Source: Porphyromonadaceae bacterium H1
GTDB taxonomy: Bacteria; Bacteroidota; Bacteroidia; Bacteroidales; Paludibacteraceae
Length of the DNA stretch: 64,000 nucleotides
Assembly: GCA_001653155.1 (NCBI GenBank)
Contig: BDEJ01000013.1
Span: 1 to 64,000, forward strand
Reading direction: 5' to 3'
Below are positions 345 through 29,704 of the stretch, piece after piece; position 1 is the stretch's first letter, and every line of letters begins with the position of its first letter. A program made the position numbers and the translations under genes. The notes beneath the pieces were generated by a model. It was not told where the DNA came from. It made no database searches and saw nothing but the letters and a program-made list of their open reading frames with translations.

Positions 345-3300
345 ATGAGAAAGTGTTTTTTCCTACTTTTTTTAGCTACATTTTCAACCCTCTGCCTTTT
401 TGCTCAACAGCCGATATCCGGTGTCGTTGTGGACGAAAACAAAGAGCCCATCATTGGGGTTTCGGTCGTTGTGAAAGGCTCTTCCACGGGCACCATAACG
501 GATATTGACGGTAAATACCAGCTGAATTCGGTACCTTCGGGCGCCACGCTGTTATTCAGTTTTGTGGGTATGAAGTCGCAGGAAGTAAAGCTAAGCCCAA
601 CAGCGAAAACTCTAAACATCACCATGCAATCCAGCTCCTTGGCCATCGAAGAGGTGGTCGTAACGGCCATGGGTATCAAGCAAGAAAAGAAACGCCTGAA
701 CTTCGCCGTACAAAGCGTGAACACGGACGATCTGAACGACAACAAATCGGCCAACTTCGTGAATGCCCTGCAAGGCAAGGTGGCCGGTATCAATATAACC
801 CATGCCGGCGGCTCTCCCAACTCGGGGGCAAGCGTCATTCTGCGCGGTATCGCTTCGGTAAACCCGGGGCGCAGCAATCAACCGCTCTACGTACTGAACG
901 GCATAGCCATGCAGGGAGGTCCGGAAGACATCAACCCCAATGACATTGAAAACGTTACGATACTGAAAGGTGCCGCAGCTTCCGCACTGTACGGACAGGA
1001 TGCTGCAAACGGAGTGATCATGATCACCACCAAACAAGGTAGCCCGGGAAAAATGTCGGTTAATGCGAATGTGAGCCTCCAGACCGAGCACACAGCAAAC
1101 CTGCCCGAGACACAAAAAACCTATGGAGTCGGAGCACTGGGAGTATACCGGCCGGAACAGCTGGGAGGAACTTCAACGGCCTGGGGGGCACCACTCCCTT
1201 CCGATATACAGCGCTACGACAACATCCGAAACTTCTTCCAAACAGGCTTCTATCAAAAGTACGACGTAAGTATAAGCGGAGGGTCCGAAAAACTGCAGGT
1301 TTATACCTCAGCCGGATATTCCAATCACGACGGTACTGTTCCGCGAGACTATAGAAGAACCTTGTCTTTACTTTTCAGATCCGATTACAAAGTAAACGAC
1401 AAATTGAGCATCTCGGCAGGCTTGAGCTCCACCTCTCATAACTTCCGAAGCTCCGGGGAGACAAGGGCTATCTACTACTGGCCGATATCGGACGATCTTC
1501 GGAACTACGAAGAAGAGAACGGCTGGCCACGCTTCCGGTACATCCGCCAAGGAGATAAGTTTGTAAAAAAGAACTCACCGGTTAGTCCGCTTTGGAGTCG
1601 CTATAAAGATGCCGGGGAGAACGAAAGGATTCGCAACATCTTCCAAGCATCTGTGCTCTTCACACCCATCGAAAAGCTACGAATTACAGCCCGTATAAAT
1701 AAGGACGACAAATACTACAACTACGAAGGCTATAGAGTTCCCCGTTTCAACATACTTACACAAGACGTTTGGCCGAACTTCAATGCCAACGGAGCCTATG
1801 CGGAAGGAAGTCCCGAATACAACGAAGCTTACCTCAAATACTACGAAGCTTACAATGCTACGCCCGCTCTCAACGCCCAAGATTTGGAAAACATACGGGG
1901 AGATAACGAAACCCGTGAATATTTAGGCGCTTACAGCTTCAACACGAGCCAATCGAGTCAACTCTCAATTAACGGGATGATTGAATACAGTATCGACCTC
2001 CCGAAAGACATAACATTGGAACTTATGCTGGGGTCGGAGGCCAAAATGAGAAATGGGCTCGAGTCTTCCGAAACTCGGAGAGAATTTACGATTCCTAATC
2101 TCTACAGCAGGAACTCCACTTTTAACGATGCAAAATCCATGTCTAGCGACATGTCACACAGCGCACACCGCATAGCAGGAGTATTCGGAGAACTACGTCT
2201 GGATTACAAAGGCCTGGCCAATCTGAGTGCCACCTACCGGAGCGACTGGTCGTCAACCATATTCCCGGAAAAAAATCCCTACTCCTACCCATCGGTGACA
2301 GTCGGTCTGATTTTCTCGGAACTTTTCGACTGGAACAACGACTGGTTCTCCTACGGGAAACTCCGTGGTAACTGGGCCGTAGTGGGAAGCGATGCCCAAC
2401 CCAATCTTTTCTCTCCCCGATACAGCCTCTACCAAACCTTGCCCGACGGGGGCTACGGAGTTGACCCAACCAAGTCGGTAGCTGCAAAAGATCTGACTCC
2501 GGAATTTGCGGACTCTTGGGAAATTGGCTTCGATTTGCGCTTCTTTGAAAACAGAACACGCTTAGACTTGGCCTATTACGGCACAACCGTTTTCAACCAG
2601 ATTGCAACGGTACGGGTATCACCGGCCTCGGGCTATATCTTGCAAACCCGCAACGAAGGATACATATCGAATCAAGGTATTGAAGCTACTCTGGCACAAG
2701 ACATTATCAAACAAAGAAACTTTTCGTGGACCACGGGTCTCAATTTCACCTTAAACCGAGGTCGAGTAGAAGGTCTGCCCGATAACATTATAGAGTTAAC
2801 CGCGGGACAATATGAAGATATCTTCCCGACAGCCTATCTGCATGGCTCCACGACGGCTCTATCGGGAAAAGACTACCTGCGTACCGAAGACGGCCGCATC
2901 ATCATAAACGAAAAAGGCTATCCTCAAATCAATCCTACGAAAGGTGTAGTAATCGGTAACCGCGAACCCGACTTTATGCTGGGGATAACGTCCAATTTCA
3001 AGTATCAAAACGCCTGGTTGAACCTGCTCATCGATGCCAGGCAGGGAGGAGATGTAGCCAACATAACCAAGCGGGGTATGTACGGAAGCGGACAACACAA
3101 ATCCTTGGATACCTACCGGGGCCGGCAAATCGTTTGGGAAGGAGTTGTGAAACAAGCGGACGGAAGTTACCTCCCCAACACGACCCCGATAGTACTGAAT
3201 CATCAAACAATAAATGAATTTTATCGGGCCGTGAGCTCCAACTTCATTGAAGACGGCTCTTACATACGCTTGAGCTATGTTACACTGGGCTACGACTTTT

Positions 3301-3506
3301 CCTCCTTCCTGCGTAAAAACGCCTGGATTAAGAGTCTGAAAGCATCCCTGACCGGAAACAACCTCTTCCTGCTCTCGCGCTACACCGGCTCGGATCCACA
3401 AATCAACGCGAATGTTGGTAGAGGAGGAAGCGGAAACAGCGGTATCGACAACTATGCAGTACCCGCTACCAGAAGTTTTAACTTTACACTAAATGCAACT
3501 TTTTAA
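345..3506 (+). CDS. SusC/RagA-type TonB-dependent outer membrane transporter
   Basis: This 1053-residue protein is the outer membrane barrel of a SusC/SusD uptake pair that imports glycans or peptides using TonB energy. A signal peptide ends near FAQQ (residue 21). A carboxypeptidase-D-like regulatory domain follows (about 23-97, with GVVVDENKEPIIGVSV), then a plug domain (about 105-230, with LRGIASVNPG, YVLNG and the ITTKQG exit) and a beta-barrel ending in NFTLNATF with a terminal aromatic residue. It is followed 12 bases later by the SusD partner and then by two lipoproteins and a glycoside hydrolase, so it probably heads an operon. The substrate cannot be read from the barrel; the neighbours point to cell-wall glycan. 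The length is normal for the family. Confidence 0.95.
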   Translation: MRKCFFLLFLATFSTLCLFAQQPISGVVVDENKEPIIGVSVVVKGSSTGTITDIDGKYQLNSVPSGATLLFSFVGMKSQEVKLSPTAKTLNITMQSSSLAIEEVVVTAMGIKQEKKRLNFAVQSVNTDDLNDNKSANFVNALQGKVAGINITHAGGSPNSGASVILRGIASVNPGRSNQPLYVLNGIAMQGGPEDINPNDIENVTILKGAAASALYGQDAANGVIMITTKQGSPGKMSVNANVSLQTEHTANLPETQKTYGVGALGVYRPEQLGGTSTAWGAPLPSDIQRYDNIRNFFQTGFYQKYDVSISGGSEKLQVYTSAGYSNHDGTVPRDYRRTLSLLFRSDYKVNDKLSISAGLSSTSHNFRSSGETRAIYYWPISDDLRNYEEENGWPRFRYIRQGDKFVKKNSPVSPLWSRYKDAGENERIRNIFQASVLFTPIEKLRITARINKDDKYYNYEGYRVPRFNILTQDVWPNFNANGAYAEGSPEYNEAYLKYYEAYNATPALNAQDLENIRGDNETREYLGAYSFNTSQSSQLSINGMIEYSIDLPKDITLELMLGSEAKMRNGLESSETRREFTIPNLYSRNSTFNDAKSMSSDMSHSAHRIAGVFGELRLDYKGLANLSATYRSDWSSTIFPEKNPYSYPSVTVGLIFSELFDWNNDWFSYGKLRGNWAVVGSDAQPNLFSPRYSLYQTLPDGGYGVDPTKSVAAKDLTPEFADSWEIGFDLRFFENRTRLDLAYYGTTVFNQIATVRVSPASGYILQTRNEGYISNQGIEATLAQDIIKQRNFSWTTGLNFTLNRGRVEGLPDNIIELTAGQYEDIFPTAYLHGSTTALSGKDYLRTEDGRIIINEKGYPQINPTKGVVIGNREPDFMLGITSNFKYQNAWLNLLIDARQGGDVANITKRGMYGSGQHKSLDTYRGRQIVWEGVVKQADGSYLPNTTPIVLNHQTINEFYRAVSSNFIEDGSYIRLSYVTLGYDFSSFLRKNAWIKSLKASLTGNNLFLLSRYTGSDPQINANVGRGGSGNSGIDNYAVPATRSFNFTLNATF

Positions 3507-3518
3507 TTTCCCCGAGAA

Positions 3519-5351
3519 ATGAAAAACATCAAATATTTATTCGGATTTTTTGGCGCCCTTGCCATCCTTTTTTCACAAACAAGCTGTACCGACTGGCTTG
3601 ATGTAAACAAGAGCATAGACCATGCTGCAGATCCTACATATGCGCAAACCCTGCCCTTAGTAGTGTTTTATGCTTCGCAAACAACCTACGACCACGCCGA
3701 GTACGGCAACTATCTGGCCCAGGCTTTAACCACCGGCGGAAGAAGTCAGACCGGAAATTACGCGTACAAAGCCGGCTGGGAATTCCTGTCGATGAACCGC
3801 CACCCACAATGGAGACGGCACTTTTTCGACATCGGACGAAATATCAAGGAACTCCACGAAATGGCAAAAAGAGAAAACGTACGTAACGTCATTCTGATAA
3901 CAAGAACCATCAAGCTCTATTCTACGATGCTCACCACCGATGCCTTCGGAGATATGCCCCATTCGGAAGTATATGAAAAGACAGCTCCGGGCTACGATAC
4001 TCAAGAATCCATTTACGAATGGATGTACAAGGAAGTAGATGATTTAATTGCTTTATACGCCGACGAGACTTGGACGGACAACAAGAACCCCAACAACAAC
4101 AATAAAAACATCATACCGAAAATGGATCGCCTCTTTCACGGCGACATGGCAAAGTGGGGTGCATTTACGAAAGCTCTGAAGGCACGCCTGCTGCTGCGTA
4201 AGCTCCCCAACTGGGACAATACACCCGAAACCTGTGCTAAAATCATCGAAGCGGTAGATGCGGCCTTGAACGACCCGGCTTATACGGACGCCCTCTACAA
4301 ATACGACGGCGGGATAGCGGAACAAAACTGTCCTTGGGGACCGGCACAGCCCAAGCTGAATCTGGGTTGGCCTCAAGCCCGGGAAAACTTGCTGAATGAC
4401 GCCATCCCCTCGCGCTTCTTTGCGCAGGCTATTTTAGGAGCTTATGCCAGTAAATCGACGAATTATGGAATAGCCCTCGACCCGAGAGCCGAAAAGCTGA
4501 TGACCGCCCGTTCGGGAGCGACAGGTAGCGGGTCGGAAATCATACGTTACCTCGACAACAACATCGGGATGAATCCCTCCATGAAAAAAGACTACTATCC
4601 GGACTTGTACACCAGCGGAGGATCGAATCCTTACGCCCGCAACGACGGCTATGTGGCCTTGATGACCAAAGAGGAGCTGCTCTTTATAAAAGCCGAAGCC
4701 CAATACTGGAAGACTTCGCCGGCCGGCAGAGACCCCAATAACTCGGGTACTCCCCTCGCACAGGATTTTACGGAGGCCTACGAAACAACCAAAGCAGCCG
4801 TGGAGTTAAGCCTCCAACGCTTCTCGGTCGGGAAATCGAGCAAAACGGAAAAACGCAGATACGAAAAGTTTATGGAAATAAAACTGCCCGGAGCATCGGC
4901 TTTCAGCATTGCCGATCTGATGCAACAAAAGTACGTATCCATGTACATGCAACCAGAAATGTGGACCGACATGCGGCGCTACAACTACAGCAGCAAGACC
5001 AACGGCATTGCTTACAGCGGGCATTTTGTATATACCGTAAGGAATCTGCACGACGGAAGCTCCAACTACAAAGCCGAAAATTTCAAGGAAGAGTTTTCCC
5101 TAACCCGCCCCTACAACCTCTACGACTCCTATTGGAACACGCCGGAGAATTTTGGAGGAAAAGCCAAGTTTTCGCCCAATGCCTGGATCAACCGTCTGAA
5201 TTACGACCCGGAAACAGAAGAAAAGTACAACCGAAAAGAGTTGGAACGCCTGGGCGCTTACAAGAATCCCGAATGGATGAAAAAACGCATGATATGGGCT
5301 TATAAGAACAATAACTATGTAACAATAGCGGAGGAAACCCCGTGGAAATAA
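3519..5351 (+). CDS. SusD/RagB-type nutrient-binding outer membrane lipoprotein
   Basis: This is a 610-residue surface lipoprotein that caps the SusC channel and binds its substrate. The N-terminus carries a lipoprotein signal with lipobox SQTSC (Cys at about 23), then the CTDWLDVN start typical of SusD proteins. The helical TPR-like body includes a C-terminal part with NPEWMKKR and an aromatic-rich end. It resembles the SusD_2-like subgroup rather than starch SusD, judged by general sequence style only. It lies 12 bases after susC, and its stop is 29 bases before the start I prefer for the next lipoprotein gene, so co-transcription is very likely. Confidence 0.93.
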   Translation: MKNIKYLFGFFGALAILFSQTSCTDWLDVNKSIDHAADPTYAQTLPLVVFYASQTTYDHAEYGNYLAQALTTGGRSQTGNYAYKAGWEFLSMNRHPQWRRHFFDIGRNIKELHEMAKRENVRNVILITRTIKLYSTMLTTDAFGDMPHSEVYEKTAPGYDTQESIYEWMYKEVDDLIALYADETWTDNKNPNNNNKNIIPKMDRLFHGDMAKWGAFTKALKARLLLRKLPNWDNTPETCAKIIEAVDAALNDPAYTDALYKYDGGIAEQNCPWGPAQPKLNLGWPQARENLLNDAIPSRFFAQAILGAYASKSTNYGIALDPRAEKLMTARSGATGSGSEIIRYLDNNIGMNPSMKKDYYPDLYTSGGSNPYARNDGYVALMTKEELLFIKAEAQYWKTSPAGRDPNNSGTPLAQDFTEAYETTKAAVELSLQRFSVGKSSKTEKRRYEKFMEIKLPGASAFSIADLMQQKYVSMYMQPEMWTDMRRYNYSSKTNGIAYSGHFVYTVRNLHDGSSNYKAENFKEEFSLTRPYNLYDSYWNTPENFGGKAKFSPNAWINRLNYDPETEEKYNRKELERLGAYKNPEWMKKRMIWAYKNNNYVTIAEETPWK

Positions 5352-5380
5352 AACAGAAGAACTACACAACGGATTTTCTT

Positions 5381-6247
5381 ATGAAAGCACAACAATCGAT
5401 ATTTACAATAGCTCTAAGCAGCTTATTCCTATTTGCTTCCTGCGATAAGCACGATAATTTGGACGATCAGCTCATTGTGGGGAAAATGGCCCCACAGGTT
5501 CATTGGGAACTGGCAAGCAATACCGTAAAAGCCGGAAGCAAGGTCTCCTTTGTTGCACAATACTACAGCACAGGAGAAGCGCCTATTTCCCATTCGGAAG
5601 TATGGTACGATCTGGAAGAAACAATAGAAAAAGAAGTTTCCTGCCCGTGGACCGTTAGCTTTAAGTACTTGATAACATCCACCACCTCGGAAAGAAAACG
5701 TATAGCCGAAAAGGTGGCCTCCTTTGAACATCAGGAAGCGCTTTGGAATCCGGAACTTCGAGCTTATAAGCTCGAAGGAAGTTTCCCGACCTCTCCGACC
5801 CTAAGCAGTGTAAGCTGGAAAGAACCGGAAGTATTCGGAACGAAAGACTCCCTGCTTATGAAAAAATACTTCGGGGAAAACTTCATGCAACATTTCAAGG
5901 ACAGCCTCTTCTCCCTGATGCAAGCTGCAGATTTTCAGAAGATGTATCAGGGTTTGGATTTGGTTAGCGATTTTAAAAAGCAATTTTTGGATTCGACTCT
6001 CAACAAAAACAGCGGCAGTTGGGACTATCATTTCCCCATCGTAAACGGAGAAAAGCCGGTTCCACAAGCAGTGGTCGAAATATACCAAAAGATTCCTTTT
6101 GCCGATTTACTAATCGATCAAAGCTCCAAATACGCTGTTAAGTATCAAAGACAATATAGCATTAACGCCTTCATAAAGGTGATAGACACCGATAAGAACG
6201 AAGGAAAAACATTTATTTCCAAACTAACGGAAATTACACTTAACTAA
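5381..6247 (+). CDS. Surface lipoprotein in SusE-like position
   Basis: This is a 288-residue lipoprotein of unknown function. I chose the ATG at 5381 because the protein then begins with a good lipoprotein signal (MKAQQSIFTIALSSL, lipobox LFASC); a longer frame from 5342 would overlap susD and add a hydrophilic leader. The residues after the Cys are acidic (DKHDNLDDQ), which can favour surface export in Bacteroidetes. The middle contains a region around KAGSKVSFVAQYYSTGEAP that looks like a beta-sandwich. The place directly after SusD is where SusE/SusF-type accessory binding proteins sit, so a substrate-binding helper is a reasonable guess, but no family motif was recognised. Confidence 0.75.
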   Translation: MKAQQSIFTIALSSLFLFASCDKHDNLDDQLIVGKMAPQVHWELASNTVKAGSKVSFVAQYYSTGEAPISHSEVWYDLEETIEKEVSCPWTVSFKYLITSTTSERKRIAEKVASFEHQEALWNPELRAYKLEGSFPTSPTLSSVSWKEPEVFGTKDSLLMKKYFGENFMQHFKDSLFSLMQAADFQKMYQGLDLVSDFKKQFLDSTLNKNSGSWDYHFPIVNGEKPVPQAVVEIYQKIPFADLLIDQSSKYAVKYQRQYSINAFIKVIDTDKNEGKTFISKLTEITLN

Positions 6248-6288
6248 CAGAAAACACATCGCGGATTTTCATTGAAAATAAAAGACTA

Positions 6289-7971
6289 ATGTATATGAAA
6301 AGATTTTTTAACCTCGGTCTGATGCAGATACTAAGCTCCGCAAGCCTGATCTTCGCTTTGCTTGCTTGTGTAGACCATAACCCAAAGATAGAAGACCTAC
6401 CCGGCAAGGAGCTGACTTTCTCCTATTCGGTGAAGGACAACAACTACCAGTTGGACTACTACGTAGGAGCTACGATTGAGTTTGTCAGCTCCGCTACGAT
6501 TCCCGGAGAACGCTCTTGGAACTTCGGAGACGGTAATACGGCCAGCGGAGAGATCGTAAGCCATAAATACAGTCAAGCGGGCACTTATCAAGTTAGCTTG
6601 ATAATCGGCGAGCGAATTTTCAAGCAAAACATATTCATCAGTGACATCAAACCCTTGATGGAGTCTTTTCTCATATCCGGAGATATTTGTGAGGTGCAAA
6701 ATTCCTACGTCGGCTTCAAGGTTGAGCTGCCGAATCCGGAAAACCTGGAAGAGGAGTACACCTGGACCTTCCCCGAAGGCAGTTTGGACGAAAGCGGAAA
6801 CCCGATAAGCACTTCCACCAACAAAGATCCCGGAAGGGTTAAATTCAGCCATGTAGGTTCCCAAAGCGTAAAATTGCAAGTGAAATTAGGCGGGCGTCTC
6901 TTGGAAGAAAGCAGCAAAAACATACAGGTAGCCTACAACAAAGAAGTCCCGACACTTTATTTTGCCGTTAAATCGGGCAACATCATGGCTTTAAAGTTGG
7001 TGAACGACGCCCCCGCCGGCATGCACATAGGGCCTTTTAATATGGAAGTAAAATCCGGAGATCGTCCGCTGAACATCCTCTTTAAAGACAGCGCCCTCTA
7101 TGTACTCGACTGCGGAAGACAGTTTACCTATGTAAACGATGCCGACAAGAATCTGGGAGACGGACGCATCTGGGTTATGACCCAAGACGCTTCGCGCATA
7201 GAGAACATACTCATCAACAGCGGTTTTGCTTTCGACGATCCGTTTTACGGCTACATTGAGGGCTCAAGCCTCTACTTCACCGACCGTAACACCGGCATTG
7301 CAAGCGTAAAACTCACGGATAGAAACCAATCGCTTAACAGAACAAGCTATCCTTTCATCGTGGAAAACAACCGTCTCGGTTACTACGGCAAAGGGATGTC
7401 TTACGGAGCCACAAATGCTTGCTTCGGAAAAATAAAAAACCTATGGTACTGGTGTAAAACTTACAACGGAAACGGTATTTTCCGTTTTACGGACAGCGAC
7501 ATTCTTTCGGAAGCAGCCCAGGACAAGGATCCGGCTCCGAGCGCCGGTATCGCTTTGGAATCCTTCTCTCCGAAGTCTTTCGTTTACGACGAACAGCGCG
7601 ATGCATTCTACTTCTCCATCTACTATCCGGGCTTAGAAGGAGTTTACAAATGTAAGCTGGAAGAACTCAATGCAATAAAAAAGAGAGAAGACCTCAGCGC
7701 CTACAAATTAAAATTGAAAAACGGAAAAACGGTAACCCCCATTACCGAATCAGGTAAAGGCGAAGGTTCTCCGGGTGAATTTATCGGTATTTGCCAGTTG
7801 ACTTTGGACGAGTCCGACGGTTCGGTATATTTCGGACTGCGCTCGGGCGACCCGGATGTAAAATCGGGACTGATGCGCTACAACCCCGCTTCGGGACACA
7901 TCGAACACCTTATCGAGGGTATCGAAGTCTACGGAGTGGCCGTAAACAATGCTAAATCCAAGCTATTCTAA
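6289..7971 (+). CDS. PKD-domain surface lipoprotein with propeller-like C-terminus
   Basis: This is a 560-residue lipoprotein (lipobox ALLAC, then VDHNPK). Residues about 45-115 form a PKD-type Ig domain with the hallmark WNFGDGN and HKYSQAGTYQVSLI. A second related domain has TWTFPEGSLDESG. The remaining 350 residues contain repeated short strands (ALYVLDCGRQ, SLYFTDRNTG, AFYFSIYYPGLEGVYK, SVYFGLRSGD) that suggest a beta-propeller of the NHL/SMP-30 type. Such proteins are common as glycan-binding or scaffolding partners in SusC/SusD loci. The stop codon lies 10 bases before the start chosen for the next gene, so it is in the same operon. A second ATG at 6295 is an equally possible start. Confidence 0.8.
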   Translation: MYMKRFFNLGLMQILSSASLIFALLACVDHNPKIEDLPGKELTFSYSVKDNNYQLDYYVGATIEFVSSATIPGERSWNFGDGNTASGEIVSHKYSQAGTYQVSLIIGERIFKQNIFISDIKPLMESFLISGDICEVQNSYVGFKVELPNPENLEEEYTWTFPEGSLDESGNPISTSTNKDPGRVKFSHVGSQSVKLQVKLGGRLLEESSKNIQVAYNKEVPTLYFAVKSGNIMALKLVNDAPAGMHIGPFNMEVKSGDRPLNILFKDSALYVLDCGRQFTYVNDADKNLGDGRIWVMTQDASRIENILINSGFAFDDPFYGYIEGSSLYFTDRNTGIASVKLTDRNQSLNRTSYPFIVENNRLGYYGKGMSYGATNACFGKIKNLWYWCKTYNGNGIFRFTDSDILSEAAQDKDPAPSAGIALESFSPKSFVYDEQRDAFYFSIYYPGLEGVYKCKLEELNAIKKREDLSAYKLKLKNGKTVTPITESGKGEGSPGEFIGICQLTLDESDGSVYFGLRSGDPDVKSGLMRYNPASGHIEHLIEGIEVYGVAVNNAKSKLF

Positions 7972-7981
7972 GAAACGAGAC

Positions 7982-10786: not shown

Positions 10787-10830
10787 ACAAGTAAATTCAT
10801 TTTAATTACTAACTCTAAAATTTAGAAATC

Positions 10831-12291: not shown

Positions 12292-12322
12292 GCGTCGCAA
12301 GTCGCATCTCCGACAAACGAAG

Positions 12323-12369
12323 GAGGGCTATCCGAAAAACCTTCCGATTTTCAGGATAGCCCTCTTTTT
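12323..12369 (+). terminator. Strong intrinsic terminator after the SusC/SusD operon
   Basis: The arms GAGGGCTATCC (12323-12333) and GGATAGCCCTC (12354-12364) are perfectly complementary and are followed by TTTTT. It sits 32 bases behind the propeller gene and separates it from the phosphodiester glycosidase gene. The rest of the gap up to 12501 holds no gene and no clear promoter box. Confidence 0.9.
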
Positions 12370-12501
12370 CATTCACAGAGGGAGTTCCGGCAAAACTTTT
12401 CCGGAATTACCAGCAAACGAATACTAAAACACAAACTTAACACAACGGGAAAGAAGCTATTTTCCCTCCACACGTTTCATTCCTCAAAATATACCTGTCG
12501 C

Positions 12502-14970: not shown

Positions 14971-15019
14971 ATGACTGCAACATAACAAAGAAAAAATAAA
15001 AACTATAAAAGCACATCGT

Positions 15020-15931
15020 ATGAAACACAGAAGCACACTACTGACAACTCTCTTAGTTTTGGCGGGCCTCTCCCTTCAGGCTCAAAGCATCAGCATCGAA
15101 AAAGTACAGCAACCCATTAAACAGAAAGGATTCTATCCCAAGCTAAGTCCAAGCGGAGCCTTCATGACCTTCACTTCAGAAGCCTACGGAGGATTAAGCC
15201 TCTATCGCTTTTCGGACAATTCCGTCGAGCAAGTATCGACGGACAAGGGTTCGGGCTTCGACCCTGTTTTCAGCACCAACGAGAAAAAGCTCTTCTACAA
15301 GCAAATCAATTACGAATCCCGTTTGCGCAAGGAGGGAGTAAAAAGCTACGATTTGGAAAAGAAGACAGAGCTCGAAATGCTTCGTCCGCGACGCAATGTA
15401 AGACAATTACAAGCTTACAAGGACGGAGTTATAACCCATGCCGAGTCGAAACTCTTCCGTTCATCCACAAGTAAATCAAAAGAAGCCATATCGAATTACG
15501 TCTGGAGCGATGGAAACAACCTGAATGTCTTCCGAAACAACAAGACGACTGCTATAAATCCTATAAAAGGAGCCAGAGGTTATATCTGGACTTCCCTCTC
15601 CCCCAATGCTAAGATGATTCTCTTCCATGCAGCCGGGAAAGGCAGCTACGTATGCGATTGGGAGGGACGGATTATTGCCGAATTGGGTGATCTGAACGCC
15701 CCTGTCTGGTATGGTAACGACTTTGTAGTAGGTATGCAGGATAAAGATGACGGGCATTTCGTAACCGAGTCAAAGATACTCATGAAAAGCCTGGATGGAA
15801 AGGTCGAAAAGGTTCTCAGCCCGGCCGGTGAAATAGCCATGTATCCGGCGGCATCAGGCAAGGCCTCGAAAGTAGCCTATAACACCCTTGCAGGCGATAT
15901 TTATGTATTGGACATTCGCATAACAAAATAA
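15020..15931 (+). CDS. TolB-like/WD40-like beta-propeller protein, copy 1
   Basis: This is a 303-residue exported protein with a signal peptide ending at LQAQS. Repeats of the TolB/PD40 type are visible: FYPKLSPSGAFMTFTSE, GSGFDPVFSTNEKKLFYK, YIWTSLSPNAKMILFHAAGK and GEIAMYPAASGKASKVAYNT. It has a clear paralogue at 27670-28593 with shared blocks such as STD[KR]G[SA]GFDP, ES[KR]LRKEGVKSYDLE / KRLRYTSVKSVDLE, and WxGNDxVVGMxDxD. In both places the propeller gene directly precedes a large amidase gene; here the gap is 4 bases. This fixed pairing suggests that the propeller is a partner, chaperone or regulator of the amidase. Confidence 0.85.
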   Translation: MKHRSTLLTTLLVLAGLSLQAQSISIEKVQQPIKQKGFYPKLSPSGAFMTFTSEAYGGLSLYRFSDNSVEQVSTDKGSGFDPVFSTNEKKLFYKQINYESRLRKEGVKSYDLEKKTELEMLRPRRNVRQLQAYKDGVITHAESKLFRSSTSKSKEAISNYVWSDGNNLNVFRNNKTTAINPIKGARGYIWTSLSPNAKMILFHAAGKGSYVCDWEGRIIAELGDLNAPVWYGNDFVVGMQDKDDGHFVTESKILMKSLDGKVEKVLSPAGEIAMYPAASGKASKVAYNTLAGDIYVLDIRITK

Positions 15932-15935
15932 CTCT

Positions 15936-18368
15936 ATGAAAAATTTTAGAATTCTTTTTCTGCTCATCGCTCTATGGGGGCTACAAACAGCTCTTGCTCA
16001 AGACTTAAGCGGTGTAAAAATACACATCAACCCCGGCCATGGAGGTTGGGACTCCGACGACCGGGGCGTACCGACCCCTCTCTTCCCGAAAGTTGGCCCC
16101 AATCTTGGTTTTTGGGAGTCGCAAAGTAACCTCGACAAGGGATTGCAACTACGGGATATGTTGCTGGCCTTGGGAGCCAATGTACAGATTTCGCGCACGC
16201 AGAACCGTACTGAAGACGACCTGCGCCTCTCCGTTATCGTACGCATGGCCAACGAATTTCAGGCCGACTTCATGCTCTCCATTCACAGCAATGCGGGACA
16301 GGGGGTGGCCAACTACGTATTGATGCTCTTTGCCGGAAAAAGCGACGGCGATACCCATATCTACCCCACTCCTACCCCGCGATCGGACGAAAGTAAGGCC
16401 ATCAGTACCGAAATTGCCAAGAACCTGATCAAAAACCGACTCAACAACTGGTCGACTCCTCACTACAACGTATCGGGCGATAAAACCTTTGCCCGCCTGC
16501 AAATGGGCTGGAACGACGGTTACGGCGTATTGAGAGGGCTTACCGTGCCGGGAGTTATTTCCGAAGGTTCGATGCACGACTACATCCCCGAAGCCTACCG
16601 GCTGATGAACATGGAATACAAATGGCTGGAAGCCTGGAACTTCAAAAAAGCTTTTTGCACCTACTTCAAAAATGCCGAAATACCCACCGGAAACATCGCT
16701 GGATGGGTTAAGGACAACAGCTTGAAAATAACCGATGGGCAGTACATCAAATACGGAAAGGACATACTCCTACCTATTGACGGGGCGAAGGTTAGTCTTG
16801 TCGAAACGGGAGCTAGCTACACGGTGGACAACAACCGGAACGGTGTTTATGTTTTTAAAGACCTGCAACCCGGTACTTATACGATACGCGTAGAAGCTCA
16901 AGGATATCACACTCAGGAACAGAGTGTTAAAGTAACGAAAAATGAAATCAGTTACCAAAACATCGAACTGGTGAAAATACGCAATACGCCGCCACAAGTA
17001 ACGGCCTATTCACCCAAAGTAGCTGAAAACGAAACGGTAGAGTGCTCCAGCGACATCGTATTAGACTTCAACTGGGATATGGACGAAGCAAGCACCTCCG
17101 GCGCTTTTTCGATAAGCCCGCAAAGGGAAGGAAAAATTACTTTTGAGAACAACACGAAACGCTTACGCTTCAAACCGCGGATTCCTTTCGAGAAATCGAC
17201 GCGCTATACCGTAACCCTCAAGCGAACAGCGAAACATCCTGATAATATGAGCATGGAAAACGACTTCTCCTTCAGCTTTACAACCAAAGACAGGAATCGT
17301 CTGGCGCTCTTGGCGGGCTTCCCGAACAACGAATACAAAGTGATGCAGGCTTCCAATCCGGCTTTCTACTTCATCTTCGACGGGAAGTTAGGCAGTACGA
17401 ACATGCTGCAGCAAAACATTCAGGTTTTCGATTCCGAAAACAAGGAACTGGAAAAAGCCCCCATGTCCATAAGGAAAAACAAAATCCGAAAAGGAGGATA
17501 CGGCGATGTGTATTTCGAAACCTCCAATCCTCTGGAAGCCGGTAAGAAATATAAGGTCGTACTCGGCAGCGATGTGGTGGACAACATAGGTATGCCGCTG
17601 GTGGATCCTATCGAGATTCATTTTACCGCTTCAACGATACAAGTAAACGACAAAAATGTTGTCGAGGATTTCGAAGGCAAAGTCGGATTTGTTTACGAAG
17701 CGGCACAAAGCCGGAACACCCAATCGGCTCTAAGCGAGAAAAGCAGCTCGGAACGTTTGTTCGGATCTTCTTCCAACATGCTCAAAGCCACATTCTCACA
17801 ACAGGACGCCTTTGCCGTTTACAAAGTCTCGACTCCTTCCGTAAGCAGTACGAAAGGCCGGGCATTCGGTCTTCACGTGTACGGCGATATGTCCAACAAC
17901 GAATTACAACTGGAATTGACGCAAGGCGCTACGGTCAAATACCTAAGTCTGTGCAAGCTCTCTTTTTGGGGCTGGCAGTTTGTAGAAGCCAAAATAGAGG
18001 AAGCAGGGGATTATACCCTCAGTGGCATACGCATACTGCGCAAAGAAGGTGTTATCTCGGGGAAAAGTACGATATACATCGACAACTTGCTCCAATACGA
18101 TAATCTGATTTCATCGTGGAACAGCCCAAGCTTTGAAAGAGAGGAGCTCGCTTTGTTGCTCTACCCGAATCCGACACAGAAAATGGTTTTTGTACGCTCC
18201 GAATCGGAAGAGAAACCGGTGCTGCAACTTTATAGCATAGACGGCAGTTTGCTAAAGACCGTTCTGTCGAAAGAAATGGATATCAGTGAATTTCCCAGTG
18301 GAAGTTATTTAATGAAAATCGCGTTCCGGAATCGCACTTTTGCCCGTCCGGTATTGCTGAGTAAATAA
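15936..18368 (+). CDS. Secreted zinc N-acetylmuramoyl-L-alanine amidase (Amidase_3) with Ig domains and T9SS tail
   Basis: This is an 810-residue exported enzyme predicted to cut the bond between MurNAc and the peptide stem of peptidoglycan. The signal peptide ends at LAQD. The Amidase_3 domain spans about 26-235, with zinc ligands His35 (INPGHGG), Glu61 (WESQSNL) and His117 (SIHSNAG) and catalytic Glu210 (VISEGSMHD). A carboxypeptidase-regulatory-like domain follows (about 262-345), then two Big_5-type Ig domains (NTPPQVTAYSP; NNEYKVMQASNPAFYFIF), a jelly-roll-like region and a T9SS sorting domain (LLLYPNPTQKM to LLSK). Start spacing of 4 bases makes it translationally tied to the propeller gene. 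It is a paralogue of the 1374-residue amidase at 23538-27662. Confidence 0.93.
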   Translation: MKNFRILFLLIALWGLQTALAQDLSGVKIHINPGHGGWDSDDRGVPTPLFPKVGPNLGFWESQSNLDKGLQLRDMLLALGANVQISRTQNRTEDDLRLSVIVRMANEFQADFMLSIHSNAGQGVANYVLMLFAGKSDGDTHIYPTPTPRSDESKAISTEIAKNLIKNRLNNWSTPHYNVSGDKTFARLQMGWNDGYGVLRGLTVPGVISEGSMHDYIPEAYRLMNMEYKWLEAWNFKKAFCTYFKNAEIPTGNIAGWVKDNSLKITDGQYIKYGKDILLPIDGAKVSLVETGASYTVDNNRNGVYVFKDLQPGTYTIRVEAQGYHTQEQSVKVTKNEISYQNIELVKIRNTPPQVTAYSPKVAENETVECSSDIVLDFNWDMDEASTSGAFSISPQREGKITFENNTKRLRFKPRIPFEKSTRYTVTLKRTAKHPDNMSMENDFSFSFTTKDRNRLALLAGFPNNEYKVMQASNPAFYFIFDGKLGSTNMLQQNIQVFDSENKELEKAPMSIRKNKIRKGGYGDVYFETSNPLEAGKKYKVVLGSDVVDNIGMPLVDPIEIHFTASTIQVNDKNVVEDFEGKVGFVYEAAQSRNTQSALSEKSSSERLFGSSSNMLKATFSQQDAFAVYKVSTPSVSSTKGRAFGLHVYGDMSNNELQLELTQGATVKYLSLCKLSFWGWQFVEAKIEEAGDYTLSGIRILRKEGVISGKSTIYIDNLLQYDNLISSWNSPSFEREELALLLYPNPTQKMVFVRSESEEKPVLQLYSIDGSLLKTVLSKEMDISEFPSGSYLMKIAFRNRTFARPVLLSK

Positions 18369-18397
18369 GCCCGCTTATATTTTGGAATTCGCATACC

Positions 18398-18437
18398 ATC
18401 AGAGGCGCCTTCGTGTATGTCGCGGGGGCGTTTCTTT
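18398..18437 (+). terminator. Possible weak terminator after amidase copy 1
   Basis: A GC-rich imperfect hairpin (GGCGCCTTCG to CGCGGGGGCG) is followed by TTTCTTTTG. G-U pairs are needed for part of the stem, so this is only a candidate. Confidence 0.4.
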
Positions 18438-18516
18438 TGATTTTTCCAAATAACCAAAGAAGAAGAACAAACTCAATACATCTATCAACAAGACAGTAAA
18501 CGCGAGAGTCAAAAAC

Positions 18517-21339
18517 ATGAAACTAAAAGAATTTCTACAGGAAGTAAGCGAACACATGCCTTCAAAGCACATTCAGACCGACCTTATGAACTGTCTGGCT
18601 TGGGGCAACGACGCCGGCTTTTATCAACTCATGCCCCGTGCCGTGCTACACAGCTCGAACGAAACGGAAATCATTGCCATCATACAAGCTGCTCGAAAGT
18701 ACCGGACTCCTCTCACTTTCCGGGCTGCCGGCACAAGCCTCTCGGGACAAGCCATAGGAGAAGGCGTGCTGGTTGTAGTCGGGAAACACTGGGAGGGCTA
18801 TCATATCGAATCAGACGGAGTGTCCATTCGATTACAACCGGGCATTGTAGGCCAACGTGTAAATGAAATTTTAAAGCCTCTGGGTCGAAAGTTTCCTCCC
18901 GATCCGGCTTCCGTGAAATCAGCTATGGTTGGCGGCATCATCCTCAACAATGCTTCCGGGATGAGCTGCGGGATTCATCACAACAGTTACCGCATGATTC
19001 GTTCCGCTCGGTTGATACTGAGTGATGGAACGCTGCTCGACACCGGTAATGAAGCAAGTAAAAGAAATTTCTCCCTCAGCCACCCCGATTTCATCCGGAG
19101 CATCGAAACGCTTCGCGACCGTGTGAGAGCCGACAAGCAACTGACCGAGCGCATCCGAAAGAAGTATTCCATCAAAAATGTAATGGGACTGAATATCCTT
19201 CCTTTCATTGAGTTTGATGATCCTTTTGATATCATCACACGGCTTATCGTTGGCTCCGAAGGTTGCCTGGCTTTTTTAGCTGAAGCCCACATGCAGACCA
19301 TTCCCGACGAAACTCATCAAGCCAGCGCCTTGTTGTTTTTCCCCAACACGCGAACAGCCAGCGAAATGGTAGTCGCTCTGAAACGCTCTCCGGTGGTCGC
19401 AGTCGAATTTCTCGACCGGAAAGCGCTCAAGTCGGTCGAAAACGAATCGCAAATGCTTTCCGATTTGAAAAATCTGCCCGAGAAAGCTTCGGCCTTGTTA
19501 ATCAAGATTGAGGCAAAAAATGAACATCAATTGGCAGAGCGCACTTCGGAGGTCAACCGCATCATCCAAAGTTTCAAAACGCTGTATCCGCCTCGCTTCA
19601 CCACAGACGAAAAGGAATACGGCTTGTATTGGACCATACGGTCGGGCATTTTTCCAGCCGTAGGAAGCATGCGCCCCGTAGGTACCACCTGCCTGATCGA
19701 AGACGTAGCCTTTCCCATGGAGGTTTTTGCCGATGCGGTAGAAAACCTGCGTGCCATACTCGATCGCAACGGCTATCACGATGCCGTCATTTACGGACAT
19801 GCACTCGAAGGAAACTACCACTTCATCCTGAATCAAGCTTTCGACACTCCGGAATCCTTAGCGCAATACGAAGCCATGATGAAGGAAGTGGCGGAGCTCG
19901 TAGTAGGCAAATACGATGGTTCATTGAAGGCCGAGCACGGAACGGGACGCAACATGGCTCCTTTCGTACGATACGAATGGGGCGACGCTGCCTACGAAAT
20001 CATGAAAGAAGTAAAACAGTTGTTTGACCCTGCCGGCATTTTCAATCCCGGTGTTATCTTCAACTCCGACCCTCAGTGCCATCTTAAGCATTTGAAACCC
20101 TTGCCGCTCACCCATCCGCTCATAGACAAATGCATCGAATGCGGCTTTTGCGAAGTGAATTGCCTCAGTTGCGGATTCACCTTATCGTCCCGCCAACGCA
20201 TTGTTCTTCAACGACGAATCAAGCACCTGAAGCAGAGCGGAGAAAACAACGAGTTAGTAAAACAGCTCGAAGCCAGCTTCAAATATGCCGGAGAACAAAC
20301 CTGTGCCGGCGACGGATTGTGCTCTACTTCTTGCCCGGTGAAAATCAATGTCGGCGATTACATCCACGTCCTGCGCGAAGAGAATAACCAAAAGCATCCC
20401 GGCCGTTACCGCATCGGAGCATGGACTGCCAATCATTTCTCGCTGCTAAACCGATCGCTCAAAACGACCTTAGGCCTTACCTACCACACAAGAGCTTTGA
20501 TCGGGAACAAGACTGTAAACCGGATCGGTAAAGGCTTGCATTATGCCAGCGGGAAACAAATTCCGCTTTGGACGGCATCTCTACCGAACTCTGCCGCAGG
20601 GAAACCGTCTCAGCAACCAAGCGAAAAGCAGGATAAAGTCGTGTACTTCCCAAGCTGCCTCAATCAGATGATGGGCGCTTCGTACAACGACCCCGAAGCC
20701 ATACCGCTCATGCAAAAAACGCTTTCCTTTCTCAACAAAGCCGGATACGAGGTTATTTTCCCGGAAGAGATGAACAAACTCTGCTGCGGAACTATTTGGG
20801 AAAGCAAGGGTATGCCCGATATTGCCGATCAGAAAACCTGCGAGTTGGAACAGGCCCTGTTAAAAGCCTCGGAGAACGGAAAATATCCGATACTATGCGA
20901 TCAAAGTCCCTGTTTGCTGCGTATGCGCCATAACATCAAAAACCTCGCACTATACGAACCTGTGGAGTTTATCGATAAATTCTTGCTGGACAGGCTCGAC
21001 TTTTTCCCGACAGACGAAGCCATCACCATACACGCTACCTGTTCTACCATCAAGATGGGCCTTAAACCTACTTTGATAAAAATAGCGAAGTACTGTAGCA
21101 ACAATGTAATCGTACCGGAAGAGGTCGGATGCTGCGGATTTGCCGGAGACAAAGGTTTTTTCTTCCCGGAACTGAATAACTATGCCTTACGGAAACTACC
21201 ACAACAAATCAAAGAAGCAAAAGTAAAAACAGGTTACAGCAACAGTCGCACTTGCGAAATCGGCTTGAATACAAACACGGGCATACCTTACGTATCGATT
21301 ATCTATCTGGTGGACAAATGCAGCAAAGCTAAGGGATAA
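18517..21339 (+). CDS. FAD-linked and Fe-S D-lactate dehydrogenase-like protein
   Basis: This is a 940-residue fusion of an FAD-binding oxidase with an iron-sulfur/CCG half, as in D-lactate or 2-hydroxyacid dehydrogenases that feed electrons to quinones. The PP-loop FAD site is at about 65-85 (FRAAGTSLSGQAIGEG), and an FAD-oxidase C-terminal domain runs to about 520 (AEHGTGRN). Two Fe-S motifs follow: CIECGFCEVNC at 538 and CAGDGLCSTSCPV at 595. Two CCG motifs lie at 756 (LCCGTIWESKG) and 872 (CCGFAGDKG). No transmembrane segment is seen, so it is probably membrane-associated on the inner face. It stands as a single gene. D-lactate is the best-guess substrate; release of lactate from MurNAc during wall salvage would fit the neighbourhood but is not shown. 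Confidence 0.87.
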   Translation: MKLKEFLQEVSEHMPSKHIQTDLMNCLAWGNDAGFYQLMPRAVLHSSNETEIIAIIQAARKYRTPLTFRAAGTSLSGQAIGEGVLVVVGKHWEGYHIESDGVSIRLQPGIVGQRVNEILKPLGRKFPPDPASVKSAMVGGIILNNASGMSCGIHHNSYRMIRSARLILSDGTLLDTGNEASKRNFSLSHPDFIRSIETLRDRVRADKQLTERIRKKYSIKNVMGLNILPFIEFDDPFDIITRLIVGSEGCLAFLAEAHMQTIPDETHQASALLFFPNTRTASEMVVALKRSPVVAVEFLDRKALKSVENESQMLSDLKNLPEKASALLIKIEAKNEHQLAERTSEVNRIIQSFKTLYPPRFTTDEKEYGLYWTIRSGIFPAVGSMRPVGTTCLIEDVAFPMEVFADAVENLRAILDRNGYHDAVIYGHALEGNYHFILNQAFDTPESLAQYEAMMKEVAELVVGKYDGSLKAEHGTGRNMAPFVRYEWGDAAYEIMKEVKQLFDPAGIFNPGVIFNSDPQCHLKHLKPLPLTHPLIDKCIECGFCEVNCLSCGFTLSSRQRIVLQRRIKHLKQSGENNELVKQLEASFKYAGEQTCAGDGLCSTSCPVKINVGDYIHVLREENNQKHPGRYRIGAWTANHFSLLNRSLKTTLGLTYHTRALIGNKTVNRIGKGLHYASGKQIPLWTASLPNSAAGKPSQQPSEKQDKVVYFPSCLNQMMGASYNDPEAIPLMQKTLSFLNKAGYEVIFPEEMNKLCCGTIWESKGMPDIADQKTCELEQALLKASENGKYPILCDQSPCLLRMRHNIKNLALYEPVEFIDKFLLDRLDFFPTDEAITIHATCSTIKMGLKPTLIKIAKYCSNNVIVPEEVGCCGFAGDKGFFFPELNNYALRKLPQQIKEAKVKTGYSNSRTCEIGLNTNTGIPYVSIIYLVDKCSKAKG

Positions 21340-21373
21340 AGAAAAGCCTCGCAAATCAAAAGACTAAATATCG

Positions 21374-22219
21374 CTACGACAGGAGTTGAGGATTGTAGTA
21401 TTCAACCAGACCTTTCATCGGCGATTCGGTAATTTTGGAAATCTCAATACCGAATTCGCCGGCTACATCTCGTAAGATGCTTTTATAATTCTCGGCGACG
21501 GAACCGATAAATCCGATGGGATAATCCTGAAAATCGTACTGAAGGATATTCCGTCTGAAGAAGCGTCTGAAGTTTTTTGCGACCAACTCGTAAACATATT
21601 CGTTATCGAGAAAATCCGACAAAAAGAAAGAAAAGACCGACAAACTACGATTCGGGAAGGATTTGTTATAAATAAGATCGAGGGCGTCATCGGCAGTAAT
21701 GCGGTAGATGTCGTAAAATTTCTCGGTAATTTCGGGAGGAGCGAGGTTTTTCAAACAGTCACTGAGAAACATCTTGCCCAATACCGCTCCGCTGCCTTCA
21801 TCTCCAAGTATGTAGCCGAGGGATTTTACATTTCGTACAATCTGATCACCGTCATACAGGCAGGAGTTAGAGCCCGTTCCAAGAATACAGGCAATCCCCT
21901 TTCCTCTGCCGAAGAGAGAGCGGGCTGCAGCCAGCAAATCACTCTCCACGTGCGTCAACACTCTGAATTGTGAGGTTAATGAGGCTTTGACAACATTCTT
22001 CTTTTCTTCGGAAGTGCAGCCTGCCCCGTAGAAAAAAATCTCATCCAACTTACGTGTAAAGAATTTTTCAGGGAGTTGCAAGCGTACACAACGACTGATT
22101 TCACGTCGTGTCTGGAAGAAGGGATTGATTCCTTCCGTATAGGTATGTTCCACGATGTGGTTGCCCTCAAGCAAACACCACTCGGCCTTAGTCGATCCGC
22201 TTTCTGCTATTAATTTCAT
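21374..22219 (-). CDS. BadF/BadG-type N-acetylglucosamine/amino-sugar kinase
   Basis: This is a 281-residue cytoplasmic sugar kinase of the BcrAD/BadFG family. I chose the start at 22219 (MKLIAESGSTKAEW) because it gives the standard phosphate-1 motif at the N-terminus; the longer frame from 22324 adds 35 unrelated residues overlapping the next gene. The motifs GTGSNS, GYILGDEGSGAVLGK and GFIGSVAENY are the ATP-binding and sugar-kinase hallmarks. Members phosphorylate GlcNAc, and in Clostridium acetobutylicum the relative MurK also phosphorylates MurNAc. With the amidases and GHL10 enzyme nearby, it would fit the intracellular end of wall-sugar salvage. Confidence 0.87.
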   Translation of the reverse strand: MKLIAESGSTKAEWCLLEGNHIVEHTYTEGINPFFQTRREISRCVRLQLPEKFFTRKLDEIFFYGAGCTSEEKKNVVKASLTSQFRVLTHVESDLLAAARSLFGRGKGIACILGTGSNSCLYDGDQIVRNVKSLGYILGDEGSGAVLGKMFLSDCLKNLAPPEITEKFYDIYRITADDALDLIYNKSFPNRSLSVFSFFLSDFLDNEYVYELVAKNFRRFFRRNILQYDFQDYPIGFIGSVAENYKSILRDVAGEFGIEISKITESPMKGLVEYYNPQLLS

Positions 22220-22287
22220 CCTGACGACTTCAATTGGGGATGCTACGCCATACCGCAACGGGAAGAAGTATGCATCCGGTTTCAACT

Positions 22288-22959
22288 TCATTCTTCCATA
22301 AAACTTCGTATGGCTTCTACCCAAACAGCATAGCCTTCTTCGTTCAAATGCAGTCCGTCGGTAGTGTAAGCCTCGTTAAGCATTGTTCCGGTTTTGTCCA
22401 GAAACAGAGGATAAAGGTCTATAAAAGTAACATGCTCTCTGCGCCCTAACTTTCTCAAACGCTTATTGAGTGCCTTTATTTGTTTTTCCTTATTCAACAA
22501 GCGCTTATAACGTCCGAAACTGTTGTTAACAGGCAACAAGCTCTGAAGATAGATACTCGTTTCGGGTGATTCGGTTTTTACACGACGAAGTATCTTTTTA
22601 ATGTTACCGGCAATATAGCTATTCGCAACATCCTGCGAAATATCATTGACTCCCATCAACAAGAAAAGTTTCCGAGGCTGAGCTTCTACTATTTCATCGA
22701 GGCGCGCCCACATTCCATCGGTATTATCACCTACAATACCTCGATTGGCCGGCTGCTGGCGTGGGAAGTACAATTCCCAGTCCCCGCCCTGAGTCAAACT
22801 GTTGCCCAATAACACAATCTGCCCCTTCTGTAGTTTATCGGCTTTAAAGGCCTCCAAACGTTTCTTGTATATTTCCGTTTCGTAAACTTTGGCAGCCTGA
22901 TTTTGAGCCAGGGCAGATAGTGACACAAAGCAAAGCAAAGATAGTATGTTGAGTTTCAT
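22288..22959 (-). CDS. Exported SGNH/GDSL-type esterase
   Basis: This is a 223-residue protein with a signal peptide (MKLNILSLLCFVSLSALAQ). The SGNH blocks are clear: block I VLLGNSLTQGG (Ser), block II NRGIVGDN (Gly), block III LLMGVNDIS (Asn) and block V TTDGLHLNEEGY (Asp and His). It resembles the PAF-acetylhydrolase/sialate O-acetylesterase type. Its likely role is removal of acetyl or acyl groups from glycans in the periplasm. It has its own promoter upstream (23036-23043) and reads toward the kinase gene 68 bases downstream, so the two are probably co-transcribed. Confidence 0.88.
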   Translation of the reverse strand: MKLNILSLLCFVSLSALAQNQAAKVYETEIYKKRLEAFKADKLQKGQIVLLGNSLTQGGDWELYFPRQQPANRGIVGDNTDGMWARLDEIVEAQPRKLFLLMGVNDISQDVANSYIAGNIKKILRRVKTESPETSIYLQSLLPVNNSFGRYKRLLNKEKQIKALNKRLRKLGRREHVTFIDLYPLFLDKTGTMLNEAYTTDGLHLNEEGYAVWVEAIRSFMEE

Positions 22960-28593: not shown

Positions 28594-28841
28594 AAAAATT
28601 AATGTTTTTAATGGATAATAATTAAGACAACAAAAGACGTTCGGAAACATTGATACCGACAGGGTCAAACCCTTTTAAGCCGAAGCACAATCCGTGATGA
28701 TGCTGCGCTCGAGAAGCTCGAAGCGGCAAACATCCGCCTCAATACAATTGGAGATAAGCGTACACAAAGAGAGATTCCTCAGCAAAAAAGAGCGACTCTC
28801 CAGCGCCCAATACAACCTTGCGTATTTTGTTGTCAAAGATA
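28594..28841 (-). promoter_or_regulatory. Promoter and long leader of the second propeller-amidase module
   Basis: On the minus strand TATCTTTG lies at 28841-28834, giving a predicted transcript start near 28827 and a leader of about 235 bases before the ATG at 28593. Small frames in the leader look random. No known riboswitch fold was recognised. Confidence 0.4.
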
Positions 28842-29663: not shown

Positions 29664-29671
29664 TACATTTG
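29664..29671 (+). promoter_or_regulatory. Possible -7 box for porX
   Basis: TACATTTG matches TAnnTTTG and lies 33 bases upstream of the ATG at 29705. No convincing -33 TTTG is present. Confidence 0.5.
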
Positions 29672-29704
29672 CATGATTATTACTCACGACAAAGACCGCA
29701 TAGA

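Follow-up and report, generated by a model that had tools for sequence, protein, structure and literature searches.

A likely peptidoglycan utilization locus in Bacteroidales linked to N-acetylmuramic acid salvage

Results

The window analysed here covers the opening 64 kb of contig C13 (BDEJ01000013.1) of Porphyromonadaceae bacterium H1, whose draft genome (G000) comprises 2.84 Mb in 117 contigs. Nine genes, g1 to g9, lie on the plus strand between 345 and 18368 and encode, in this order, SusC, SusD, two lipoproteins, a GHL10 protein, a propeller, a NAGPA protein, a TolB-like protein and an Amidase_3 protein. Together with g10 to g12 they form a candidate locus for the use of peptidoglycan. 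The initial annotation had named SusC/SusD with two surface lipoproteins, a GHL10 hydrolase, a phosphodiester glycosidase, a zinc amidase, an SGNH esterase and a BadF amino-sugar kinase, and all of these were recovered:

345–3506, plus strand: g1, SusC/RagA TonB-linked outer-membrane transporter (TIGR04056, 631.6 bits)
3519–5351, plus strand: g2, SusD-like surface lipoprotein (SusD-like_2, PF12771, E 5.1e-21, 75.4 bits)
5381–6247, plus strand: g3, surface lipoprotein of no known family, lipobox-like start by eye; start placed at an ATG inside the listed open reading frame 5342–6247
6289–7971, plus strand: g4, PKD-domain surface lipoprotein (PF18911, E 1.9e-11), lipobox-like start by eye
7982–10786, plus strand: g5, predicted GHL10 (Cwp19-like) glycan-strand cutter with a type IX secretion system (T9SS) tail (PF02638, E 1.4e-65, 221.9 bits); the listed reading frame begins at ATG 7949, from which residues are numbered
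10831–12291, plus strand: g6, secreted beta-propeller with a weak T9SS-like C-terminus (TIGR04183, 19.1 bits, below cut-off)
12502–14970, plus strand: g7, NAGPA/DUF2233 phosphodiester glycosidase with a T9SS tail (PF09992, E 6.8e-25, 88.7 bits; PF18962, 35.2 bits)
15020–15931, plus strand: g8, TolB-like propeller, signal peptide by eye (TIGR02800, weak, 23.4 of 343 bits)
15936–18368, plus strand: g9, zinc N-acetylmuramoyl-L-alanine amidase (Amidase_3) with a T9SS tail (PF01520, E 6.6e-14, 52.8 bits; PF18962, 37.4 bits)
18401–18435, plus strand: terminator-like hairpin 3' of g9, 15 pairs then a T run (pattern match only)
18517–21339, plus strand: g10, FAD/Fe-S oxidase (PF02913, PF01565, Fer4_8)
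21374–22219, minus strand: g11, BadF-type sugar kinase resembling K1058 (8oqk, E 1.9e-113); start at ATG, listed reading frame extending to 22324
22288–22959, minus strand: g12, SGNH/GDSL esterase (Lipase_GDSL_2, PF13472, E 8e-26, 92 bits)

The gene run has the make-up of a polysaccharide utilization locus (PUL), with adjacent SusC and SusD homologues (TIGR04056, PF12771) and surface-exported degradative enzymes (GHL10, NAGPA and Amidase_3 with T9SS tails) in the same run. Sorting tails above the curated cut-off were found in g5, g7, g9 and the downstream gene g13. Four such tails had been claimed for the span 345–22959; three stand, g6 falls short (19.1 against 23 bits), and the tail of g13 lies outside. 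The genes of this span hold up as a locus, but a single operon across it is rejected, because g11 and g12 are encoded on the opposite strand and g9 is followed by a terminator-like stem. To this locus we add g10, which the initial annotation had passed over and which belongs by its context in relatives. No regulator or sensor was recognised among g1–g12; the contig starts only 344 bases 5' of the SusC gene.

Relatives, which together with their loci are cited by number (G and L), were located via g4 or g7, with open reading frames called mechanically from ATG starts. Since g4 served as search anchor, its adjacency to g1–g3 is partly by construction; the linkage to g5–g12 and to the mur genes is not. 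Genes g1–g9 occur in identical order in G024 and G018, and G028 has g1–g7 up to the contig end; g1 and g6–g9 are present in G011 in pieces across several contigs. When named genome contigs were scanned by alignment to g4 (best 80 of 258 relatives), g4 matched over most of its length in at least six loci. Three belong to metagenome-assembled genomes (MAGs) of Paludibacter, Dysgonamonadaceae and Muribaculaceae (horse faeces), and three to an uncultured Bacteroidales MAG (L028), Candidatus Sodaliphilus and Maribellus sediminis, the last with BadF, MurQ, g1–g5, g8 and a distant g9. L029 (4.4 kb, g4 and g5 only) and L031–L104 (partial, mostly the PKD part) stand outside the counts.

Among 15 other g4 loci tabulated, GHL10 is present in all 15, NAGPA in 12 and Amidase_3 in 10, and a g8-type gene precedes Amidase_3 in 10 of the 15. 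The order is shuffled in G106, G262 and Maribellus, and shorter forms occur in G329, L027 and L028. The window has one copy of g7; five of the 13 g4 loci with g7 (G028, G367, G368, G140, G425) have two or three. In G011 a Glucosaminidase-domain protein (PF01832; L019, 3475–5571), an extra peptidoglycan enzyme, lies between g7 and g8. The g1–g9 set thus recurs in several families of Bacteroidales, though with some genes lost or reordered, and because its order is shared by other genera the grouping is more than chance.

The residues expected for catalysis are largely retained. The closest solved relative of g5 is Cwp19 (5oq2, E 1.5e-68), a peptidoglycan lytic transglycosylase. Its active-site residues Arg132, Asp195 and Asp196, as described for Clostridioides difficile (PMC6016235, PMC5765458), correspond to R149, D212 and D213 of g5, which are kept in 16 of 16 sequences; the Gln77 equivalent is kept in 13 of 16, with His in L027, L028 and G329. 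In g7 the stretch D352-G-G-G is invariant in 15 of 15 sequences, whereas H303 varies in three, and D323 and R325 in one each. We take the DGGG motif to have a functional role in NAGPA phosphodiester glycosidases. H35, E61, H117 and E210 of g9 are kept in all 12 sequences whose best window match is g9 (E 1e-15); we assume that, as in other Amidase_3 proteins, H, E and H are the zinc ligands and the last E the catalytic residue.

Identity of g1 to the SusC at the same locus position in relatives is 42–59%, and that of g4 is 33–62% across eight aligned relatives. No Pfam or NCBIfam match was obtained for g3; its model (mean pLDDT 82.6) is beta-rich with a helical insert, and a fold search gave no solved structure at E ≤ 0.001. 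The model of g6 (pLDDT 84.3) is a propeller, best matched by the solved DUF4623 protein 4ftd (E 5.4e-12, TM 0.50, rmsd 11.9). We leave g3, g4, g6 and g8 without a specific assigned function.

The strongest pointer to the substrate is the linkage to catabolism of N-acetylmuramic acid (MurNAc). In an even sample of the order (393 genomes), 94 genomes have MurQ: all nine with g4 and 85 of the 384 others (Fisher p 1.9e-6), and by genus seven of seven against 49 of 198 (p 8.5e-5); related genomes are not independent, and the support is weaker than these p values say. On the same contig, MurQ lies 6 to 34 kb from g4 in six of the nine (G018, G367, G140, G368, G425, G262). MurQ and a BadF kinase are located directly 5' of SusC in G028, G018, G011 and the Paludibacter MAG, and with one gene between in Maribellus; in the first three of these MurQ was confirmed by TIGR00274, and a NagB-type gene adjoins MurQ/BadF. 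In the Dysgonamonadaceae MAG, AmpG lies directly 5' of SusC.

In three genomes of one genus (G368, G140, G425), g1–g9 and the salvage genes occupy one strand over about 42 kb from SusC. After g9 come BadF, a Golvesin-domain protein, a phosphoesterase, a family 2 glycosyltransferase (GT2), DUF4922, SpoIID, AmpG, NamZ, a g10-type oxidase, MurT, MurK, MurQ and SGNH, of which BadF is 57–59% identical to g11, the oxidase 56% to g10 and SGNH 38–40% to g12. The window genome has a comparable run on contig C53 (L105), where GT2, DUF4922, SpoIID, AmpG, NamZ, a MurT-like HGSNAT/DUF5009 protein, a BadF kinase and MurQ are encoded in one direction, so that the AmpG-NamZ-MurT-MurK-MurQ order typical of Tannerella forsythia is found in the same genome. 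NamZ is present in 12 of 12 genomes tested, a set including G011, for which no g4 sequence was available and which was counted via g1 and g6–g9 on separate contigs. At L130 the recurrent partners of the salvage genes lie at 6033–7487 (GT2) and 7451–8422 (DUF4922). In four genomes, enolase-superfamily (MR_MLE) proteins are encoded near the locus or the salvage genes, at L030 19563–20576, L126 4311–5465, L129 14390–15499 and L142 6484–7584, three recognised by Pfam and that of L142 by BLAST only; they may be L-Ala-D/L-Glu epimerases for wall peptides.

The gene order in relatives places g10, g11 and g12 in this pathway, even though the window itself has no MurQ. The best solved matches of g10 are glycolate oxidase, LctD and D-lactate dehydrogenase, a similarity at family level only. 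Its homologue adjoins NamZ in seven genomes (G368, G140, G425, G329, G024, G018, G028), lying between NamZ and MurT in five, and in G262 it is found about 5 kb from SusC, on the far side of a second SusCD pair. From this context g10 is probably a D-lactate dehydrogenase acting on lactate freed by MurQ.

The kinase g11 has no Pfam match; it is nearest to K1058 of T. forsythia, and homologues follow g9 in G368, G140 and G425. MurNAc specificity in MurK has been attributed (PMC10465942) to an S-P-L motif at the lactyl-ether pocket. This motif is present in the C53 kinase and in T. forsythia MurK, whereas g11 has K-S-L. Because of this difference and its closeness to K1058, which is slow on MurNAc, g11 may phosphorylate another sugar.

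Homologues of g12 are found after MurQ in G368, G140, G425 and G024, and beside MurT in G367. In three Bacteroides species, 56–66% of MurNAc is O-acetylated at C6 according to the passages concerned of a gut peptidoglycome review (PMC11382707), and g12 may remove O-acetyl groups that would block C6 phosphorylation.

The initial annotation had offered an inability to make MurNAc as the reason for scavenging. This idea does not survive for the window organism, and its MurNAc auxotrophy is rejected: the genome encodes both MurA (TIGR01072, 429.8 bits) and MurB (TIGR00179, E 5e-67), above curated cut-offs, and so does not share the T. forsythia-type absence of the two. In the set of 12, G011 and G329 lack both MurA and MurB, and G028 (94% complete) lacks MurA. 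G011 (100% complete) has pieces of the locus (g1, g6–g9, on separate contigs) and MurQ-BadF-NagB. In G329 (99% complete) the locus is short (g1–g5), neither NAGPA nor an amidase adjoins it, and a complete AmpG-NamZ-oxidase-MurTKQ run lies elsewhere in the genome. These two nearly complete genomes of different families, without MurA and MurB, look like MurNAc auxotrophs. MurA was found in 380 of the 393 genomes of the order, and in 339 of the 345 with completeness of 90% or more and contamination of 5% or less. Any enrichment of its loss with g4 is weak (one of nine against 12 of 384) and carries no statistical weight. The locus may serve nutrition in some carriers and need in others. G195 (100% complete) and G420 (97%) have neither a MurA nor a g4 match and carry MurQ and a MurK-like kinase (37–40% identical to T. 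forsythia MurK); on MurA absence alone, they are further candidate auxotrophs.

Past g12, a tRNA-Ser gene precedes g13, and two minus-strand genes lie there:

23538–27662, minus strand: g13, second Amidase_3-type protein with a T9SS tail (PF01520, 21.7 bits, cut-off 27; PF18962, 41.8 bits); start at ATG, listed reading frame extending to 27686
27670–28668, minus strand: second TolB-like gene, partner of g13 (34% identical to g8, E 2.6e-54; PD40)

The zinc motif of g13 is present by eye although its PF01520 score is below the cut-off, and the two genes are a paralogous copy of the g8-g9 pair. A few kb from the T9SS cargo genes, 29669–31255 encodes a response regulator with a PglZ domain, a make-up which we take to be that of the T9SS regulator PorX. 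The three genes at 31500–37108 resemble, by eye, an outer-membrane factor, a membrane-fusion protein and a resistance-nodulation-division (RND) pump; the last shares 45% identity with an RND gene located on the G011 contig that bears a g7 paralogue. At 58143–63545 lies a run of minus-strand genes whose own starts, by eye, resemble mobile-element genes.

Discussion

Gene content, conserved order, co-occurrence, linkage in relatives, active-site residues and T9SS tails were observed directly, and from them we infer the enzymatic activities, the order of the steps and the direction of transport. On this basis, the locus is very probably a peptidoglycan utilization locus, the outer-membrane and surface arm of a T. 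forsythia-type salvage of MurNAc and muropeptides, whose surface machine very probably breaks down foreign bacterial walls and takes up the fragments. The peptidoglycan scavenging at the cell surface suggested in the initial annotation is supported by the linkage to MurQ, MurK, AmpG, NamZ, MurT and NagB in relatives and from the conserved active sites.

In the scheme that we propose, the T9SS would place g9 (and g13) at the surface, where they would strip the stem peptides off foreign peptidoglycan, g5 would cut the denuded glycan strands, and g7 would take off a phosphodiester-linked decoration, the least certain and weakest step of the scheme. The resulting pieces, (GlcNAc-MurNAc)n, in which GlcNAc is N-acetylglucosamine, would be imported by g2 and g1. 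Periplasmic NamZ would then free MurNAc, MurT and AmpG would carry the sugars inward, MurK would phosphorylate MurNAc, and MurQ would split MurNAc 6-phosphate into GlcNAc 6-phosphate and D-lactate, a cleavage for which release of D-lactate has been described (PMC5790795). The D-lactate would be oxidised by g10, while g12 may remove O-acetyl groups and g11 may phosphorylate a second sugar. Because Cwp19 makes anhydroMurNAc and AnmK is absent from nearly all genomes tested, products of g5 with reducing ends are favoured.

The possible role of g7 deserves a separate comment. In Gram-positive bacteria, wall teichoic acids hang on peptidoglycan via GlcNAc-alpha-1-phosphate-6-MurNAc, and human NAGPA acts on GlcNAc-alpha-1-phosphate-6-mannose, a chemically matching linkage. 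By analogy, g7 might conceivably be a surface "uncovering enzyme" that cuts this link in wall teichoic acids or similar polymers and leaves MurNAc 6-phosphate, although we regard this assignment as rather doubtful. Such a cut would clear Gram-positive peptidoglycan for the amidase and GHL10. Both the multicopy g7 loci and the phosphoesterases encoded within or close to the linked genes in six genomes agree with this assignment. If it is true, the locus would be complete in itself for feeding on the walls of both Gram-positive and Gram-negative bacteria.

Several observations weigh against the assignment of the locus to peptidoglycan use. SusD-like_2 proteins need not bind glycans. The locus is rare: the g4 profile matched nine of the 393 genomes, that of the window among them, from six families and seven genera, and g7 homologues were found in five of 61 genomes, again counting the window genome. 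MurQ is on another contig in the window genome, G106 and G329, where contig ends may explain some of the cases, and in G024, which is outside the 393-genome sample, the salvage genes and the locus are separated by about 136 kb. Three of the 15 other g4 loci (G329, L028, Maribellus) showed no NAGPA and five no Amidase_3, namely G329, L028 (same strand), and L027, G028 and G367, in which the contig or fetched stretch ends first. Eleven of the 12 genomes tested, among them the window genome, lack AnmK, which is required for the use of anhydroMurNAc; a purely lytic-transglycosylase g5 is a poor fit to this. Finally, g11 is without the S-P-L motif, and K1058 binds MurNAc with slow turnover.

The same genes could instead serve recycling or remodelling of the bacterium's own wall, in division or T9SS assembly, and the nearby salvage genes would reflect that. 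MurQ and AmpG are indeed recycling genes in Escherichia coli, and DigH and amidases act in its division (PMC12288456). However, SusC/SusD import across the outer membrane, three of the enzymes carry T9SS tails and should act outside the cell, away from its own wall, and a distribution as patchy as nine of 393 genomes is ill suited to housekeeping; we therefore find this explanation unlikely. It is also quite improbable that the true substrate is another polymer bearing aminosugars or phosphate, such as a teichoic acid, capsule or phosphoglycan, with peptidoglycan incidental. The annotation of NAGPA as a phosphodiester glycosidase, its two or three copies in the G028, G367, G368, G140 and G425 loci, and phosphoesterases in the locus or near the salvage genes of G367, G368, G140, G425, G024 and G262 would suit such a polymer. 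In contrast, the Amidase_3 with its full zinc motif, the Cwp19-like GHL10 and the MurQ/MurK/NamZ linkage all indicate peptidoglycan, and across the other g4 loci it is GHL10 (15 of 15) rather than NAGPA (12 of 15) that is constant. The grouping of several surface peptidoglycan-attacking enzymes would suit a bacteriolytic weapon for killing competitors, with uptake secondary. This reading is hardly credible, since the partners that recur are SusCD and the catabolic genes, and no immunity-like gene was recognised by eye, no search aimed at such genes having been made.

The peptidoglycan utilization locus proposed here combines two known systems. It resembles PULs in having SusC, SusD, extra surface lipoproteins and secreted degradative enzymes in one gene run, and differs from them in that the enzymes are of peptidoglycan type and are linked in relatives to MurNAc catabolism. 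The inner half corresponds to the co-transcribed T. forsythia operon Tanf_08345–08385, which comprises xanthan lyase, two glycosyltransferases, lytB, ampG, ybbC, murT, murK and murQ in a bacterium that uses external muropeptides (PMC5388701). T. forsythia is without MurA and MurB, whereas the window organism has both. In four genomes considered as candidates for T. forsythia, the best match to its MurK reached 55% identity, and none was identified as that species. From gene position and general knowledge, we take YbbC of that operon to be NamZ and its second "glycosyltransferase" to be DUF4922. The same gene order as in the scavenging operon (PMC5388701, PMC7670621, PMC5790795) is present on C53. 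Genes g1–g9 are an addition to that operon as described, since the relevant passages of its papers cover inner-membrane and cytosolic steps; the word TonB is absent from the main text of all three.

In Fidelibacter multiformis (PMC11652737), MurNAc 6-phosphate is likewise split into GlcNAc 6-phosphate and D-lactate, followed by a D-lactate dehydrogenase, as proposed for g10; this muropeptide-dependent organism belongs to another phylum, and no such surface locus is described in the sections concerned. Compared with Cwp19 and with DigH as presented in part of PMC12288456, g5 has fn3/Ig-like C-terminal domains, a T9SS tail and a SusCD locus setting. We take E. coli DigH to be a GHL10 protein as well. 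Among the matches listed from open-licence PMC text, judged by titles and abstract openings, there was no peptidoglycan PUL of such a make-up, and none is described in the portions consulted of a Rhodothermus paper (PMC6987092) and of the gut peptidoglycome review (PMC11382707). Each half, the PUL logic and MurNAc salvage, is known by itself; the literature searched yielded no combination of the two. Anaerobic enrichments fed with peptidoglycan came to be dominated by uncultured bacteria that include Bacteroidetes (PMC7511781), a result that fits the proposed function and is no proof of it.

Peptidoglycan is abundant in gut, sediment and biofilm habitats, and Bacteroidales that depend on MurNAc have to get this polymer from others. 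The inner salvage steps have been worked out in T. forsythia, with no outer-membrane route in the parts of those accounts considered here. The locus suggests how such bacteria may pass wall fragments through the outer membrane, and a SusCD locus joined in relatives to the inner genes offers a testable candidate transporter and surface enzyme set. It would also give a biological role to GHL10, NAGPA and several unnamed lipoproteins. As the locus occurs in genomes with MurA and MurB and, in partial form, in two without them, the transition from wall feeding to wall dependence becomes accessible to study.

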